A DNA stretch of 64,000 nt from Terrabacter tumescens (lineage in GTDB: Bacteria; Actinomycetota; Actinomycetes; Actinomycetales; Dermatophilaceae). Numbering within the stretch: position 1 is the first letter of the stretch; each line of letters begins with the position of its first letter. Of this stretch, positions 36,217 to 42,323 are shown in pieces. Both the position numbers and the translations under genes were made by a program. Below the pieces are notes generated by a model. That model saw nothing but the letters and a program-made list of their open reading frames with translations, did no database searches and had not been told where the DNA came from. Location: contig NZ_BMNZ01000003.1 in NCBI RefSeq assembly GCF_014646815.1, positions 434,001 to 498,000 on the forward strand. Reading direction: 5' to 3'.

Positions 36217-36260
36217 CTCACCCGGCGCTCACCCGGCGCTCACCCGGCGCTCAACCGGCG
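36217..36260. repeat. 11-bp tandem repeat, four copies
   Basis: CTCACCCGGCG is repeated three times exactly (36217-36249) and once with one change (36250-36260). The last copy contains the stop codon of the convergent Tudor-like gene, so the array marks the end of that gene. Confidence 0.85.
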
Positions 36261-36454
36261 TCGAGCGAGGACTCCTTGTGGGCCGCCTGGGCGCCGGTCT
36301 TGCTCGACTCGACGATCCAGTACGGCTCGTCGCCGGACGCGTTGAACTTCTGCCCGTCGAAGGTGAACTCCTTGACCCGCTTCTCCACGGCCTTGCCCGT
36401 GGTGCGGCCCTGGGACGTGTTCCAGTGGACGGTGTCGCCCTTGCTGATCGCCAT
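36251..36454 (-). CDS. Hypervirulence-associated Tudor-like protein (DUF2945)
   Basis: This 67-residue protein begins MAISKGDTVHWNTSQGRTTG and continues with the beta-barrel pattern of DUF2945: KAVEKRVKEFTF, QKFNASGDEPYWIVES. These small proteins are common in bacteria and fungi, and their ligand is not established. The ATG at 36454 fits the family start, with a weak purine-rich sequence upstream. It is divergent from the repeat-peptide gene at 36564. Confidence 0.82.
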   Translation of the reverse strand: MAISKGDTVHWNTSQGRTTGKAVEKRVKEFTFDGQKFNASGDEPYWIVESSKTGAQAAHKESSLDAG

Positions 36455-36563
36455 GGACTGATCCCAACACGACACGGCGACCTGTGCCAGAGGCGGTGCC
36501 AGCGGGTAGGTCAACGGGGACGGCGTCGTCCGGCGCCGCTGCACACCCCGTGGAGGAGAAGCG

Positions 36564-36782
36564 ATGAGCGACAACCCGCTGGACCCTGTGAGCGACCCGA
36601 CGACCGAAGGGCCCGCCGACGGCGGCGCTGACACGAGCAGCCAGGACGGCGGCGCTGACGGCGGCGCCGACGCCTCGGGCACCGAAGGCACCGAGGGCCC
36701 CGCCGACGGCGGCGCCGACACGAGCAGCCACGACGGCGGCGCTGACGGCGGGGCCGGAGCGGACCCGACCAGCTCCATCTGA
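36564..36782 (+). CDS. 72-residue DGGAD-repeat peptide coupled to a JmjC/cupin oxygenase
   Basis: This small protein is unrecognised. After MSDNPLDPVSDP it contains two near-identical 22-residue blocks (residues 14-35 and 43-64) that differ only at Gln27/His56. Each carries DGGAD motifs; there are five in all. The rest is Thr/Ser/Asp/Pro, with no Cys, Lys, Arg or aromatic residue and no signal peptide. GGAGGAGAAG precedes the ATG, so it is well translated. Its stop overlaps the start of the JmjC-type oxygenase as TGATG. The layout suggests a peptide substrate, such as a RiPP-like precursor, but an unstructured spacer or accessory role is also possible. Confidence 0.75.
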   Translation: MSDNPLDPVSDPTTEGPADGGADTSSQDGGADGGADASGTEGTEGPADGGADTSSHDGGADGGAGADPTSSI

Positions 36783-38029
36783 TGTCCGCTGGCACGACGA
36801 GCCGAGCGTCCACCCCGACCGGTGGGCGCTCGGCGCTCGGGCGTCTGGTCCCCTTCGACGCCGACGAGTTCGCGCAGGAGCACTGGGCGCGCTCGCCCGT
36901 GGTGACGCGGGCCGCCGACCTGCCCGGCGACCTGCTCGAGCTGTTCGGTGAGGACTCCGTCGACGAGCTCGTCTCGCGGCGCGGCCTCCGGGCACCCTTC
37001 CTCCGGGTCGCGCAGGACGGTCGGACGCTCGGCGACCGCGAATTCACCCAGGGCGGCGGCGTCGGCGCGTCGGTCGCCGACCAGGTCAGCGACGACAAGC
37101 TGCTGCACCTCTTCACCGGCGGGGCGACCATCGTCCTGCAGGGGCTGCACCGCACCTGGGGACCGCTCGTCGACTTCACCCAGCAGCTCGCGGCGGAGCT
37201 CGGGCACCCCGTCCAGGCCAACGCCTACGTCACCCCGAGCCAGAACACCGGCTTCAGCGACCACTACGACGTCCACGACGTCTTCGTGCTGCAGATGGCC
37301 GGCGAGAAGCGTTGGCGCGTCAGGCCGCCCGTACGTCCCGCACCCCTGCGCAACGAGCCGTGGACCGACCACCGCGCCGAGGTCGAGGAGGCCTCGCAGC
37401 GCGCGCCCGAGCGCGAGTTCACCCTCGGGCCCGGCGACGTGCTCTACCTCCCCCGCGGCTGGATCCACTCGGCGACCGCCCTCGGCGGCGTCAGCACCCA
37501 CCTGACCCTCGGGGTCCACGTCTGGACCCGCCGCCACGTCGCGGACGAGCTCGTCTCGATAGCCCTGGCGTCTATGAGCCGCGACGAGCGGGTGCGGGCC
37601 TCGCTCGACGTGGCACCGACCGGCTTCGACCACGACGCCCTCACCCCCGACGTCGAGCTCGTCCGGGCCGCGCTCGTGCGGGCACTGGGCGAGATCGAGC
37701 CGGCAGAGGTCGTCGACGCGCTCGAGCTGCGTGCCCGGGGCACGCAGCGGCCGTCGCCCATCGGACCTCTGGCGCAGGTGGCCGCTGCGGAATCACTGAC
37801 GTCCGACACCCTGCTCACCCTGCGACCGCACGTCGCAGCCCGCCTGGTGCCTGCCGGCGACGGCTCGGCGACCCTGCGCAGCCGACTGGCCGACTTCCCC
37901 GTCGAGCGGCACCACGTCGGCACGTTCGTGGCCCTCATCGCTGACGGCGTGCTGCGCGCCGACATGGTGGGGCTGGACCTCGCCCGGCAGCTCATGCTCG
38001 CCGGCCTGCTCGTCGTCGCCGAGAACTGA
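36782..38029 (+). CDS. JmjC/cupin-4 family 2-oxoglutarate-dependent oxygenase
   Basis: This 415-residue enzyme resembles the bacterial ribosomal-oxygenase/YcfD (RoxA) group, which hydroxylates protein side chains using Fe(II), O2 and 2-oxoglutarate. The iron triad is intact: His161-x-Asp163 in GFSDHYDVHDVFVLQ and His229 in LPRGWIHSATA. Lys176/Arg177 in MAGEKRWRV may contact 2-oxoglutarate. A C-terminal winged-helix-like dimerisation part of about 130 residues follows. YcfD targets ribosomal protein L16; here the translationally coupled DGGAD peptide is an alternative candidate substrate. This is inference from position only. Confidence 0.85.
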   Translation: MSAGTTSRASTPTGGRSALGRLVPFDADEFAQEHWARSPVVTRAADLPGDLLELFGEDSVDELVSRRGLRAPFLRVAQDGRTLGDREFTQGGGVGASVADQVSDDKLLHLFTGGATIVLQGLHRTWGPLVDFTQQLAAELGHPVQANAYVTPSQNTGFSDHYDVHDVFVLQMAGEKRWRVRPPVRPAPLRNEPWTDHRAEVEEASQRAPEREFTLGPGDVLYLPRGWIHSATALGGVSTHLTLGVHVWTRRHVADELVSIALASMSRDERVRASLDVAPTGFDHDALTPDVELVRAALVRALGEIEPAEVVDALELRARGTQRPSPIGPLAQVAAAESLTSDTLLTLRPHVAARLVPAGDGSATLRSRLADFPVERHHVGTFVALIADGVLRADMVGLDLARQLMLAGLLVVAEN

Positions 38030-38040
38030 CAGCGGGCGGT

Positions 38041-38163
38041 CACACGCGGCCTCTCGACAGTTGAAGAGGGGCCACACGTGGCCTCTCGACGGTTGAAGAG
38101 GGGCCACACGTGGCCTCTCGACGGTTCAAGAGGGGCCACACGTGGCCTCTCGACGGTTGAAGG
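38041..38163. repeat. 32-bp tandem repeat array with internal palindromes
   Basis: Four units of 32 bp start at 38041, 38073, 38105 and 38137. Each unit boundary holds GGCCACACGTGGCC, a 6-bp inverted pair around AC that can extend to about 10 bp with one G-U. There are no unique spacers, so this is not CRISPR. It fills the gap between the oxygenase stop and the convergent metal-receptor gene, and the hairpins may act as a terminator. Confidence 0.9.
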
Positions 38164-38185: not shown

Positions 38186-38941
38186 TCAGGGGGTGACTGC
38201 GGCGGTGAGGGCCGCTCGGGCGCCGACGAGGCTGGGGCCGTACCAGGTGAGCAGCCGGCCGCTGACGAGGGCCGTGCGCGCGTGAGCGAACGCCTCGGGC
38301 CCGTCGTCGGCCGTGAAGACGTAGGGCTCGTCGGGCAGCAGCACCGTGACGCCGTCCCGGTCGAGGTCGGACACCTCGACGTGCGGGTAGCGCTCGGCCG
38401 AGTCGGCGAGCACGTTGCGCCAGCCGAGCCGGGCAACGAGGTCGCCGGTGAACGTGTCGCGCCCGACGGCCATCCAGGGGTCGCGCCAGATCGCCACGGC
38501 GACATCGATGCTGGGCTCCGGCACCGGGCCACCCCACTCCGCCCGCGCGGACTCGAGCCACCCCGGAGTACCCAGCTGGAGGACCTCGGCGAACAGCCGC
38601 TCGAGCGAGTCGAGCGCAGCGGGCACCGTCTCGATGTCCGTCACCCAGACGGGTATGCCGTCGGCCCGCAGCCGCCTCACATCCAGCTCGCGGTTCTCCT
38701 CCTTGTTCGCGACGACGAGGTCGGGCCCCAGCGCCCGGATCGCAGCGAGGTCGGGGTTCTTCGTGCCCCGAACCCTGGGCACCGCAAGCCCGCTCGGGTG
38801 CGTGCACCAGTCCGTGGCCCCGACCAGCCGTTCCGGGCACGTGGTCGCCAGCGCCTCGGTGATCGACGGCACCAGCGACACGACCCGGCGGGGCGCGCTC
38901 GGGAGGGACACGGCATACGCAAGGTCGTCGTCCAGCGTCAT
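38186..38941 (-). CDS. Helical-backbone metal receptor-like protein (BtuF-like, no signal peptide)
   Basis: This 251-residue protein matches the periplasmic-binding helical-backbone family (cobalamin or siderophore receptors): RRVVSLVPSITEALAT, VGATDWCTHP, GTKNPDLAAIRALGPDLVVANKEEN and VTVLLPDEPYVF. However, it starts directly with MTLDDDLAYAV and has no signal peptide or lipobox. Such cytoplasmic relatives exist in actinobacteria and their role is unclear. No transporter genes lie nearby. The ATG at 38941 is preferred; a TTG four codons upstream is in frame. Confidence 0.75.
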   Translation of the reverse strand: MTLDDDLAYAVSLPSAPRRVVSLVPSITEALATTCPERLVGATDWCTHPSGLAVPRVRGTKNPDLAAIRALGPDLVVANKEENRELDVRRLRADGIPVWVTDIETVPAALDSLERLFAEVLQLGTPGWLESARAEWGGPVPEPSIDVAVAIWRDPWMAVGRDTFTGDLVARLGWRNVLADSAERYPHVEVSDLDRDGVTVLLPDEPYVFTADDGPEAFAHARTALVSGRLLTWYGPSLVGARAALTAAVTP

Positions 38942-39017
38942 CCGTAGAGCCAACCACGCGGGTCGTTCGAGGGCACTCGGGGGCGCAGGCCGCCCGCGGC
39001 CGTGAACCCCCGAGCGT

Positions 39018-42000
39018 TCAGACGTTGCGGCGGTACTGGCCGCCGACCTCGAAGAAGGCCTCGGTCACCTGCTGGAGCGAGCACACCCGCGCCGCCCGCA
39101 TGAGGACGTCGAAGACGTTGCCTCCCTCGATCGCGACCGCCTTGAGCTCTTCGAGCGCCGCCGTCGCCTCGACCTCGTGCTCCTTGCGGAACGCGCGGAC
39201 TCGCGACAGCTGGCCCTGCTTCTCCTCCTCGGTGCCGCGGGCGAGCACGACCTTGCGCGGCACCTCACCCTCGTGCGGGTTGCGGAAGGTGTTGACGCCG
39301 ATGATCGGCAGGCTGCCGTCGTGCTTACGGTGCTCGTAGAGCATCGACTCGTCCTGGATGCGACCGCGCTGGTAGCCGGTCTCCATGGCGCCGAGCACGC
39401 CGCCGCGCTCGGTGATGCGGTCGAACTCCTTGAGCACCGCGGCCTCGACGAGGTCGGTGAGCTCGTCGATGACGAAGGAGCCCTGGAGCGGGTTCTCGTT
39501 CATCGCCAGGCCCCACTCGCGGTTGATGATGAGCTGGATGGCGAGCGCGCGACGCACCGACTCCTCCGACGGCGTGGTCACGGCCTCGTCGAAAGCGTTG
39601 GTGTGCAGAGAGTTCGCGTTGTCGTAGATCGCGATGAGCGCCTGCAGCGTCGTGCGGATGTCGTTGAAGTCCATCTCCTGCGCGTGGAGGCTGCGCCCCG
39701 ACGTCTGCACGTGGTACTTCAGCTTCTGCGACCGCTCTCCCGCGCCGTAGCGCTCCTTCATCGCGACGGCCCAGATGCGACGGGCGACCCGGCCGAGCAC
39801 GGAGTACTCGGGGTCCATGCCGTTGCTGAAGAAGAAGGACAGGTTGGGGGCGAAGTCGTCGACGGCCATGCCGCGCGCGAGGTAGCTCTCGACGTAGGTG
39901 AAGCCGTTGGCGAGGGTGAACGCGAGCTGGCTGATGGGGTTGGCCCCGGCCTCGGCGATGTGGTAGCCCGAGATCGACACGGAGTAGAAGTTGCGCACCT
40001 GGTGCTCGATGAACCACTCCTGGATGTCGGCCATCATCTTGAGCGAGAACTCGGTGCTGAAGATGCAGGTGTTCTGGCCCTGGTCCTCCTTGAGGATGTC
40101 GGCCTGCACCGTGCCGCGCACGTTGGCGAGGGCGTATGCCGCGAGCTCCTTGCGCTCGGCCTCGCCCGGCTCCCGGCCCTCCCGCGCCCGGAAGGCGTCG
40201 ACCTGCTGGTCGATGGCGGTGTTGAGGAAGAAGGCGAGGATCGTCGGCGCGGGACCGTTGATCGTCATCGAGACCGACGTCGTGGGCGACACGAGGTCGA
40301 ACCCGTCGTAGAGCGCCTTCATGTCGTCGAGCGTCGCGATCGAGACGCCCGAGGTGCCGACCTTGCCGTAGACGTCGGGGCGCGGGTCGGGGTCGCGACT
40401 GTAGAGGGTCACGGAGTCGAACGCCGTGGACAGGCGGGTGGCCGGCTGACCCTCCGAGAGCAGCTTGAAGCGGCGGTTGGTGCGGAAGGGGTCACCCTCG
40501 CCGGCGAACATGCGAGCGGGGTCCTCACCCTCGCGCTTGAACGGGAAGACGCCGGCCGTGAACGGGAAGTAGCCGGGGAGGTTCTCGCGGCGCAGGAAGC
40601 TGACGAGCTCGCCGTGGTCGCGGTAGCGCGGGAGGGAGACGCGCGGGATCTTGTTGCCCGACAACGACTCTCGAGTCAGGACGTTGCGGATCTCCTTGTC
40701 ACGGATGCGCACGACCTGCTCGTCGCCGGAGTAGGACGCGACGACCGAGGGCCACGCGGACAGCGCGCCGGCGACCTCGGACGGGACGTCGGTGCGGGCC
40801 TCGTCGAGGAGGGCCTCGACGGCCTCGACCGCGCTCGCGGCGCTGCCGACCTCGTCGGCCGCTGCGGCAGAGGCGAGCTCGCCGCGCACGGACTCGAGGC
40901 GCTGCACGCGACTGGCCGCAGCGGCATACCGCTCCGTCGCCTCGTGGTAGCCGCGCACCGTGTCGCTGATATCGGCGAGGTAGCGCACGCGGGACGCGGG
41001 CACGATGGTCGCGATGCGCGTGGACTGCTTGGTGGCGACGTGCGGCAGGACGCCCTCACCGACGGGCATCCCCTTGTCGGACAAGAGGTCTCGCAGCTGC
41101 TGGTAGAGCGCGGTGACGCCGTCGTCGTTGAAGGTGGCGGCAGACGTGCCGTAGACGGGCATGTCGGCGGGCCCCTTGCCGAAGGCCTCGCGGTTGCGCA
41201 CCATCTGGCGGCCGACGTCACGCAGGGCGTCCTCGGCGCCGCGCCGCTCGAACTTGTTGATGGCGACGACATCGGCGCGGTCGAGCATGTCGATCTTCTC
41301 GAGCTGGCTGCTGGCGCCGAACTCCGGCGTCATGACGTAGAGCGAGACGTCGGCGAAGTCGACGATGGCCGCGTCGCCCTGACCGATGCCGGGCGTCTCG
41401 AGGATGACGAGGTCGAAGCCGGCGGCGCGGACGATGTCGAGGACGTCGTCGAGGTGCGTCGGGACCTGGGAGCCGCCGCGCGTCGCGAGGCTGCGGAAGA
41501 ATACGCGGTCGCCGTCGAGCGAGCTCATCCGGATGCGGTCGCCGAGCAGGGCGCCGCCACCGCGGCTGCGGGTGGGGTCGATGGCGAGGACGGCGACGCG
41601 GAGCTTGTCCTGCTGGTCGAGGCGCAGACGTCGGATCAGCTCGTCGGTGAGGCTCGACTTGCCCGAGCCTCCGGTGCCGGTGATGCCGAGGACGGGCACG
41701 CGACGGCGGCCTGCGGCCTCGCGGATGCGGGTCAGGGTCGGCTCGTCGAGGTCGCCCTCCTGGGCGCCGGTGATGGCCCGCGCGACGGCCGCGCGCTCTC
41801 CCGCGAGGACGGCCTCGACCGACGCGGCGGCGGTCTCCCAGGGGTCGAAGTCGCAGTCGGCGACGACGGTGTTGATCATGCCGGCGAGGCCGAGCCGCTG
41901 GCCGTCCTCGGGGCTGAAGATCGTGACGCCGGACTCGCGCAGCCGCGCGATCTCCTCGGGGACGATGACGCCGCCACCACCACCGACGACGCGGATGTGG

Positions 42001-42287
42001 CCGGCGCCGTTCTCCTTGAGCAGCTGCACGAGGTACTCGAAGTACTCGACGTGCCCACCCTGGTAGGAGCTGACCGCGACGCCCTGCACGTCCTCCTCGA
42101 TCGCTGCGTCGACGACCTCCTGGACCGAGCGGTTGTGCCCGAGGTGGATGACCTCGGCGCCCTGCGTCTGCATGATGCGCCGCATGATGTTGATCGAGGC
42201 GTCGTGGCCGTCGAAGAGGCTGCTCGCGGTGACGAGCCGGACGTGGTGGGTCGGCTGGTGCAGGTCGCGCTGCGGTGCGTCAGACAT
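39018..42287 (-). CDS. icmF: Fused isobutyryl-CoA mutase (IcmF)
   Basis: This 1089-residue fusion interconverts isobutyryl-CoA and n-butyryl-CoA with coenzyme B12. The order of domains is B12-binding (Asp26-x-His28 in SLFDGHDASIN), MeaB-like G-protein chaperone (P-loop GTGGSGKSS near 204-212), then the large TIM-barrel mutase domain. The mutase substrate region reads LPGYFPFTAGVFPFKR, as in IcmF rather than methylmalonyl-CoA mutase; related substrates such as pivalyl-CoA are possible. The ATG at 42287 has TACTAT 6 nt upstream and TTGACG 18 nt further, so the message is leaderless. A MarR gene is divergent. Confidence 0.95.
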   Translation of the reverse strand: MSDAPQRDLHQPTHHVRLVTASSLFDGHDASINIMRRIMQTQGAEVIHLGHNRSVQEVVDAAIEEDVQGVAVSSYQGGHVEYFEYLVQLLKENGAGHIRVVGGGGGVIVPEEIARLRESGVTIFSPEDGQRLGLAGMINTVVADCDFDPWETAAASVEAVLAGERAAVARAITGAQEGDLDEPTLTRIREAAGRRRVPVLGITGTGGSGKSSLTDELIRRLRLDQQDKLRVAVLAIDPTRSRGGGALLGDRIRMSSLDGDRVFFRSLATRGGSQVPTHLDDVLDIVRAAGFDLVILETPGIGQGDAAIVDFADVSLYVMTPEFGASSQLEKIDMLDRADVVAINKFERRGAEDALRDVGRQMVRNREAFGKGPADMPVYGTSAATFNDDGVTALYQQLRDLLSDKGMPVGEGVLPHVATKQSTRIATIVPASRVRYLADISDTVRGYHEATERYAAAASRVQRLESVRGELASAAAADEVGSAASAVEAVEALLDEARTDVPSEVAGALSAWPSVVASYSGDEQVVRIRDKEIRNVLTRESLSGNKIPRVSLPRYRDHGELVSFLRRENLPGYFPFTAGVFPFKREGEDPARMFAGEGDPFRTNRRFKLLSEGQPATRLSTAFDSVTLYSRDPDPRPDVYGKVGTSGVSIATLDDMKALYDGFDLVSPTTSVSMTINGPAPTILAFFLNTAIDQQVDAFRAREGREPGEAERKELAAYALANVRGTVQADILKEDQGQNTCIFSTEFSLKMMADIQEWFIEHQVRNFYSVSISGYHIAEAGANPISQLAFTLANGFTYVESYLARGMAVDDFAPNLSFFFSNGMDPEYSVLGRVARRIWAVAMKERYGAGERSQKLKYHVQTSGRSLHAQEMDFNDIRTTLQALIAIYDNANSLHTNAFDEAVTTPSEESVRRALAIQLIINREWGLAMNENPLQGSFVIDELTDLVEAAVLKEFDRITERGGVLGAMETGYQRGRIQDESMLYEHRKHDGSLPIIGVNTFRNPHEGEVPRKVVLARGTEEEKQGQLSRVRAFRKEHEVEATAALEELKAVAIEGGNVFDVLMRAARVCSLQQVTEAFFEVGGQYRRNV

Positions 42288-42293
42288 GAGAAA

Positions 42294-42323
42294 ATAGTAG
42301 GACTTCCTACTAATGGACGTCAA
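42294..42323 (-). promoter_or_regulatory. icmF promoter with MarR-type palindromic operator
   Basis: On the minus strand, TTGACG (42318-42323) and TACTAT (42294-42299) are separated by 18 nt, and 6 nt separate the -10 from the icmF ATG. The palindrome TAGTAGGA-CT-TCCTACTA (42295-42312) covers the spacer and the -10. The divergent MarR gene at 42350 has its own TACGAT at 42338-42343, so it may be autoregulated. Confidence 0.7.

Follow-up and report, generated by a model that had tools for sequence, protein, structure and literature searches.

Does the small aspartate-rich peptide encoded directly in front of a JmjC-type oxygenase gene in Terrabacter tumescens serve as a substrate of this enzyme? 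The locus lies within a 64-kb stretch of DNA (64,000 nucleotides, hereafter the window), which is part of a 4.7 Mb genome. The initial annotation had described a 72-residue peptide with two 22-residue repeats and five DGGAD motifs, whose gene is fused by the sequence TGATG to that of the oxygenase, and the reading frames confirm this description, provided that overlapping DGGAD motifs are counted. The peptide gene (36564..36782, on the plus strand like all other features of the cassette) is preceded by the Shine-Dalgarno-like sequence GGAGGAGA (36552..36559), which reads as a good ribosome-binding site. The N-terminal stretch MSDNPLDPVSDPTT (36564..36605) is leader-like by position and is followed by repeat unit 1, EGPADGGADTSSQDGGADGGAD (36606..36671, residues 15-36), and repeat unit 2, EGPADGGADTSSHDGGADGGAG (36693..36758, residues 44-65). 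The peptide is acidic (pI 4.05) and has no match to a Pfam or NCBIfam family. Its stop codon TGA (36780-36782) and the ATG of the enzyme gene (36782-36784) overlap in TGATG (36780..36784), which likely couples translation of the two genes; within the genus, all 9 genomes searched have the same junction, the genome of the window among them. Upstream, a small Hva1_TUDOR protein (PF11160, 66 bits; 36254-36454, minus strand) is encoded divergently from the peptide gene, and four copies of the 11-base repeat CTCACCCGGCG lie between upstream genes at 36217-36260.

The enzyme (36782..38029, 415 aa) is a JmjC_2 (PF08007) oxygenase that by homology should depend on Fe(II) and 2-oxoglutarate. Its profile match covers residues 142-250 (37205..37531; E 8e-28, 96.9 bits as compared to a curated cut-off of 22). 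The predicted iron ligands His161 and Asp163 (37262..37270) and His229 (37466..37468), which had been called an intact triad, are invariant in alignments of 19 and of 60 rows. Lys176 (37307..37309) aligns with the lysine of the GEK/GRK motif in MINA53 and NO66, which we take to be the residue that binds 2-oxoglutarate. A structure model of the enzyme (mean pLDDT 91.2) has the ribosomal oxygenases NO66, MINA53 and YcfD as its best solved matches in Foldseek and corresponds to the full-length ROX fold including the C-terminal winged helix (NO66: E 1e-23, TM 0.62), whereas FIH is much further off. When the C-terminal winged-helix domain (37766..38026) was modelled alone, YcfD-like and MINA53 proteins came first (E 0.017 to 0.07), followed by the RRE of PbtF (0.07), McbBCD (0.14), a RiPP heterocyclase (0.16) and ThcOx (0.27), the latter three being RRE carriers as well. 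These E-values are weak; RRE-bearing proteins appear among the first nine matches with E-values of 0.07 to 0.4, and unrelated proteins from 0.55 onwards. The modelled domain somewhat resembles RiPP recognition elements, which is a lead rather than a proof.

If peptide and enzyme belong together, they should recur as a pair, and a search for the same pair in other actinobacterial genomes had been proposed. Four sets of homologues were assembled: 58 relatives, 26 of which have the enzyme; 80 named loci, which ranked best among 559 relatives; 396 genomes from the phylum, of which 58 gave a match; and the PF08007 matches in 246 genomes of the class, 84 of which have a match. Upstream of each enzyme, a fixed rule looked for an Asp-rich reading frame of small residues with at least 12% Asp. 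By set, such a peptide was present at 29 of 30 (some loci being counted twice), 77 of 80, 30 of 30, 44 of 90 (PF08007, class) and 20 of 24 loci. For a non-redundant count, near-copies, X-containing rows and short weak matches were taken out beforehand, as were L248, L249, L253 and L254, where the A1 profile found no enzyme. The remaining 212 enzymes split sharply by profile score: the peptide precedes 165 of the 169 enzymes with at least 200 bits, but only 1 of the 43 below this value, and that one scores 199.9. Two of the four misses are contig ends (L259, L278), and a third (L106) lies near a contig start, with the last 18 residues of its array still visible. This leaves a single real miss, an enzyme without peptide in Piscicoccus (L111, identical to L020). 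A further locus, L069, has an assembly gap upstream and falls outside the non-redundant set. The genome harbouring the peptide-less enzyme (Piscicoccus intestinalis, G014) also encodes another enzyme, L028, which is accompanied by an array of the DGTD type.

At 385 control genes, called by a simple G+C rule, the upstream-peptide rule was satisfied four times, and none of these four peptides is repeat-like within its first 60 residues. The association is phylum-wide, and with 165 of 169 versus 4 of 385 the pairing of an Asp-rich peptide with this branch of enzymes is beyond chance. Conversely, a degenerate search of the 58 relatives for DG(G/A)ADGGA revealed arrays of at least two sites in 21 genomes, each at the enzyme, while the 32 relatives without enzyme have no such array, three of them having isolated single sites. 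The enzyme itself is patchily distributed. Genera carrying the cassette include Streptomyces, Arthrobacter, Nocardioides and Modestobacter, and variant arrays extend to further classes within the phylum; Streptomyces albidoflavus NRRL B-1271 is one of the carriers (L116). A simple test detected no natural fusion of peptide and enzyme, and no relatives were found in viral contigs. When plasmids were searched with a portion of an enzyme from Streptomyces, 17 records were returned, 16 from S. clavuligerus at 34.9% identity and one from Pseudanabaena at 28.6%. On the S. clavuligerus plasmid (L281, 5760-7155), a 48-aa Asp/Pro-containing peptide precedes the cupin-annotated enzyme relative, with an S9 peptidase and an ABC transporter nearby; the cyanobacterial relative (L282, 1-6176) lies near a LanM lanthipeptide synthetase.

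It had further been proposed to check whether the number of DGGAD units varies while the enzyme is conserved, and this is indeed the case: counting the genome of the window, nine members of the genus have 2, 3, 3, 3, 3, 5, 3, 2 and 2 complete units, whereby the five-unit array holds an ambiguous base. Comparison of units over 297 between-genome pairs, which are not independent of each other, yielded a pN/pS of 0.12, which indicates purifying selection on their protein sequence. Among 168 distinct peptides, length ranges from 51 to 202 residues and the number of Asp residues from 9 to 45; overall they consist of 30% Gly, 20% Asp and 17.5% Ala, and none contains Cys. DGGA arrays are found chiefly with a single branch of the enzyme. 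In deeper branches, the arrays are of the DGDATD or DGTD type, and the peptides of an Arsenicicoccus-type group are acidic but free of repeats. Acidic peptides without the repeats, ending like GADLDEDQSEGRGPTIEPGA, accompany the branch enzymes L071, L097 (Arsenicicoccus) and L135. Peptide type tracks the enzyme tree, three labels requiring 9 changes as compared to a mean of 67 upon shuffling, in a quick tree whose deepest split is weak and whose 141 rows are the window plus 140 of the 212 enzymes (45 of the 117 DGGA rows, picked at random, and all rows of the other groups).

Which residue might be modified? Known targets of JmjC hydroxylation include Asp, Asn, His, Lys and Arg. Counted on the longer reading frames rather than on N-terminally trimmed ones, His is absent from 49, Asn from 71 and both Lys and Arg from 89 of the 168 peptides; from residue 21 onwards, 55 lack His, 125 lack Asn and 105 lack both Lys and Arg. 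Asp is present in all 168, a result partly built in through the finder's demand for at least 12% Asp, although the finder missed only one clearly testable locus. By elimination, Asp would be the likeliest target, as it is the sole known JmjC target residue shared by all peptides. His, one of the candidates named initially, was rejected as a general target, since a residue missing from 49 peptides cannot fill this role. A leader-like motif, [DE][DEQNAS][DEQ]?[IM]x[TS], was sought in the first 32 residues and occurs in 35 of 119 DGGA peptides and in 38 of 49 others (73 of 168 in total), as compared to means of 1.5 and 1.7, respectively, and a maximum of 6 in 500 shuffles. It is degenerate in the window, in Terrabacter and in Streptomyces.

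The initial annotation had stated that no transporter or protease follows, and as tested this holds: clustering of 40 loci revealed no widely shared protease or exporter, and queries for S9 peptidase and MFS proteins matched at none of 101 loci. A loose group of ABC-ATPase-type frames, found in 6 of the 40 loci at differing places and including one frame that also matches peptidase S15, is counted as chance company, though no other group comes closer to a transporter or protease. The notion that the enzyme alone is conserved, with the neighbouring frames as its shadows, is disposed of by a cluster found in 33 of the 40 loci, which represents a Suc_Fer-like (PF06999) 2Fe-2S gene. According to tblastn, 67 of 101 loci have this gene downstream in the same orientation. 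Among non-redundant testable loci, it was detected by profile at 74 of 104 of the DGGA type and at 18 of 23 others (92 of 127), one case being confirmed by Pfam and others by PF06999 search. It is absent from 35 of the 127 testable loci and from the whole 64-kb window. The genome of the window has such a gene elsewhere, as do 42 of the 58 relatives, many of them without the enzyme. In the window, the enzyme gene is directly followed by a 32-base tandem repeat (38041-38162; 3.8 copies, 95% matches), whose 21-base core occurs at 12 sites of the genome with at most one mismatch. Further downstream, the minus strand encodes a Peripla_BP_2-like protein (38186-38953), which scores below the Pfam cut-off, has no signal peptide evident by eye and has a homologue near the cassette in Humibacillus and Intrasporangium, and then a fused protein of the B12-binding, MeaB and methylmalonyl-CoA mutase type (39018-42323), which we take to be IcmF-like.

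Cousin JmjC_2 enzymes outside the branch were inspected as well. By a fixed rule, 28 of 42 have a short Asp-containing peptide upstream, and the same rule matched at 14 of the 385 controls, whereby four start estimates were allowed per cousin enzyme and only one per control gene. Thirteen of the 14 control matches are cousin JmjC loci that had not been filtered out, meaning that the controls are not all unrelated genes. In a first cousin family (L295, L298, L300-L307), the order S9 peptidase, peptide, JmjC is kept in 10 of 10 loci, and in 9 of the 10 the stretch also includes a FhuF-type gene preceded by an iron box. Its short peptide ends like GGDSDGTDGSSDFI, and this family looks like a separate RiPP family. 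A second family has a Suc_Fer-like gene nearby in six loci (Pfam was run on two), and in a third, inspection of seven loci by eye suggests that the next gene encodes an aldo/keto reductase. Iron boxes were scored against a 19-position consensus, which we take to represent the DtxR/IdeR box; in shuffled stretches of 13 kb, chance matches reach 11 to 14 of 19. At 14 to 16 of 19, boxes lie directly before FhuF in nine cousin loci and also occur in the six loci of the second family, where they precede Suc_Fer in those cases in which positions were compared (L296, L311, L315). No box was found before the peptide-JmjC genes of the cousin loci. Likewise, none of 115 regions upstream of DGGA peptides holds a box at 14 of 19 or better, when boxes at any position are counted, 2 of 100 loci from the DGGA set have one, and none of 101 loci of this set has a match to FhuF or SIP.

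Taken together, we consider it probable, if well short of certain, that these genes form a RiPP-like cassette composed of a dedicated multi-site peptide substrate and a hydroxylating oxygenase, with Asp as the most likely target. The initial reading of a substrate with its own modifier is thereby supported as that of a dedicated pair, judging from the recurrence at 165 of 169 enzymes and the varying copy number. A gene-encoded putative precursor is linked to a modifying enzyme, as is typical of RiPPs, and the enzyme would act on this precursor. According to this proposal, the peptide would comprise a short N-terminal leader followed by the repeat array. The oxygenase would bind it, probably aided by the RRE-like winged-helix domain recognizing the leader, and its iron centre may then hydroxylate the array at many places, most likely at the beta-carbon of Asp in the D-G-G-A units. 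Coupling through TGATG would ensure that substrate and enzyme are made together. In most testable relatives, the Suc_Fer-like protein may act as redox partner and might hold the iron of the enzyme in the ferrous state through repeated turnovers; the Terrabacter group has a two-gene form without an adjoining Suc_Fer gene. At the level of sequence, firm ground is provided by the pairing, its spread, the selection on the units, the intact catalytic residues and the third gene. Further support comes from the short Asp-containing peptides of the cousin enzymes. The proposal is weakened by the fact that His or Arg, not Asp, is hydroxylated by the nearest relatives of solved structure, by the weak RRE likeness and the degenerate leader motif of the window and of Streptomyces, and by the lack of a conserved protease or exporter, the loci missing Suc_Fer and the peptide-less enzyme L111.

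Several other explanations have to be weighed against the RiPP-like reading. The peptide could be a substrate for a different chemistry, such as Gly or Ala oxidation, a desaturation, cross-link or imide at the D-G sites or, in the His-bearing subgroup, modification of His. Asp-Gly, a hot spot for succinimides, occurs 1712 times in the 168 peptides, His precedes DGGA 217 times, and the aldo/keto reductase-like gene of the third cousin group looks as if a carbonyl were made. However, to our knowledge all JmjC_2 enzymes with known action hydroxylate, and the 49 His-free peptides speak against a common role of His; we regard such chemistry as rather unlikely. Alternatively, the peptide may be a partner of the enzyme without being modified, that is, a disordered acidic metal buffer, an iron chaperone or a regulator of the oxygenase. 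Its acidity, its size range, the absence of Cys and the missing exporter and protease would fit such a role, but the leader-like motif, the RRE-like domain, the varying unit number and the precursor-like single peptides of the cousins suit a substrate better, which makes a mere partner improbable.

Closer to the enzyme's own ancestry, it might be an ordinary ribosomal-protein oxygenase preceded by an incidental reading frame or attenuator. Sequence and fold are indeed nearest to NO66, MINA53 and YcfD, but an incidental frame would hardly accompany nearly every branch enzyme with its protein sequence under purifying selection, and presence in 26 of 58 relatives is unlike a housekeeping enzyme of the ribosome, so that this explanation appears very improbable. 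A link to iron was taken seriously because of the FhuF and SIP genes and iron boxes at cousin loci: the product could be a metallophore of ribosomal origin or a store of iron, from which the reductase Suc_Fer would free the metal. Hydroxyaspartate binds Fe(III), one cousin family combines peptide and JmjC with a FhuF-type reductase and its box in 9 of 10 loci, and the Suc_Fer-type cousins have boxes in six. Against this, regulation by iron is not apparent at the DGGA loci, given the 0 of 115 upstream regions with a box, the 2 of 100 loci with a box anywhere and the lack of FhuF or SIP matches, and the cousin boxes that were checked precede the reductase gene rather than the peptide-JmjC genes; on these grounds we lowered our estimate and now give the metallophore little credence. 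A broader version, in which a phylum-wide class of ribosomal peptides is matured by stand-alone RRE-bearing JmjC_2 enzymes, the repeat branch making intracellular metal-binding poly-(beta-hydroxyaspartate) of a length set by repeat number and served by a 2Fe-2S reductase, and the short-peptide branch making iron chelators, strikes us as quite unlikely.

If the RiPP-like reading is true, the cassette would represent an unrecognised peptide-modification system common to many actinobacterial genera, and many JmjC_2 proteins of actinobacteria would modify peptides instead of acting as ribosome oxygenases. Made up of two genes, the cassette would also be a very simple system in which to study iterative hydroxylation, and possibly a route to ribosomally encoded hydroxyaspartate polymers. 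As carriers such as S. albidoflavus NRRL B-1271 can be cultured, the question is directly testable.

How does the cassette relate to known systems? In the open-licence literature, covered by title and start of abstract and with subscription journals mostly outside its range, we found no paper that describes DGGAD repeats together with a JmjC enzyme, and the pair looks like an undescribed kind of modified-peptide system. Xia et al. (JACS, 2025) reportedly describe 2-oxoglutarate-dependent macrocyclization in RiPPs, which could bear on novelty. By analogy, precedent may be seen in biphenomycin-type clusters, in which, according to the available portions of the reports, the JmjC hydroxylase BipG (PMC12707348) and the cupin oxygenase PbsQ, which hydroxylates its precursor (PMC12257519), act on RiPP precursors. 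These clusters share with the present one a JmjC- or cupin-type oxygenase working on a ribosomal precursor, but differ in that Orn within an aromatic core is the target and several partner enzymes, a TldD protease and an MFS transporter take part, while the same portions describe no repeat array (PMC12707348, PMC12257519). RRE-Finder 2025 reports PF08007 fused to an RRE-like domain in fish and algal proteins, with bacterial homologues of ~30% identity in RiPP-like contexts, and cites work on ProcM and prochlorosin; in the text available, it neither mentions DGGAD repeats nor names the system (PMC12710340). Hydroxylases of Asp, Asn and His of the FIH type have the same JmjC fold and iron triad, but their structural match is far weaker (E 4e-10 as compared to 1e-23 for NO66). 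The ribosomal oxygenases NO66, MINA53 and YcfD/RoxA share the JmjC_2 domain, the iron triad and the fold with its C-terminal winged helix, at 16 to 23% identity in the structural matches, whereas the enzyme described here is patchily distributed and tied to a gene for a repeat peptide.
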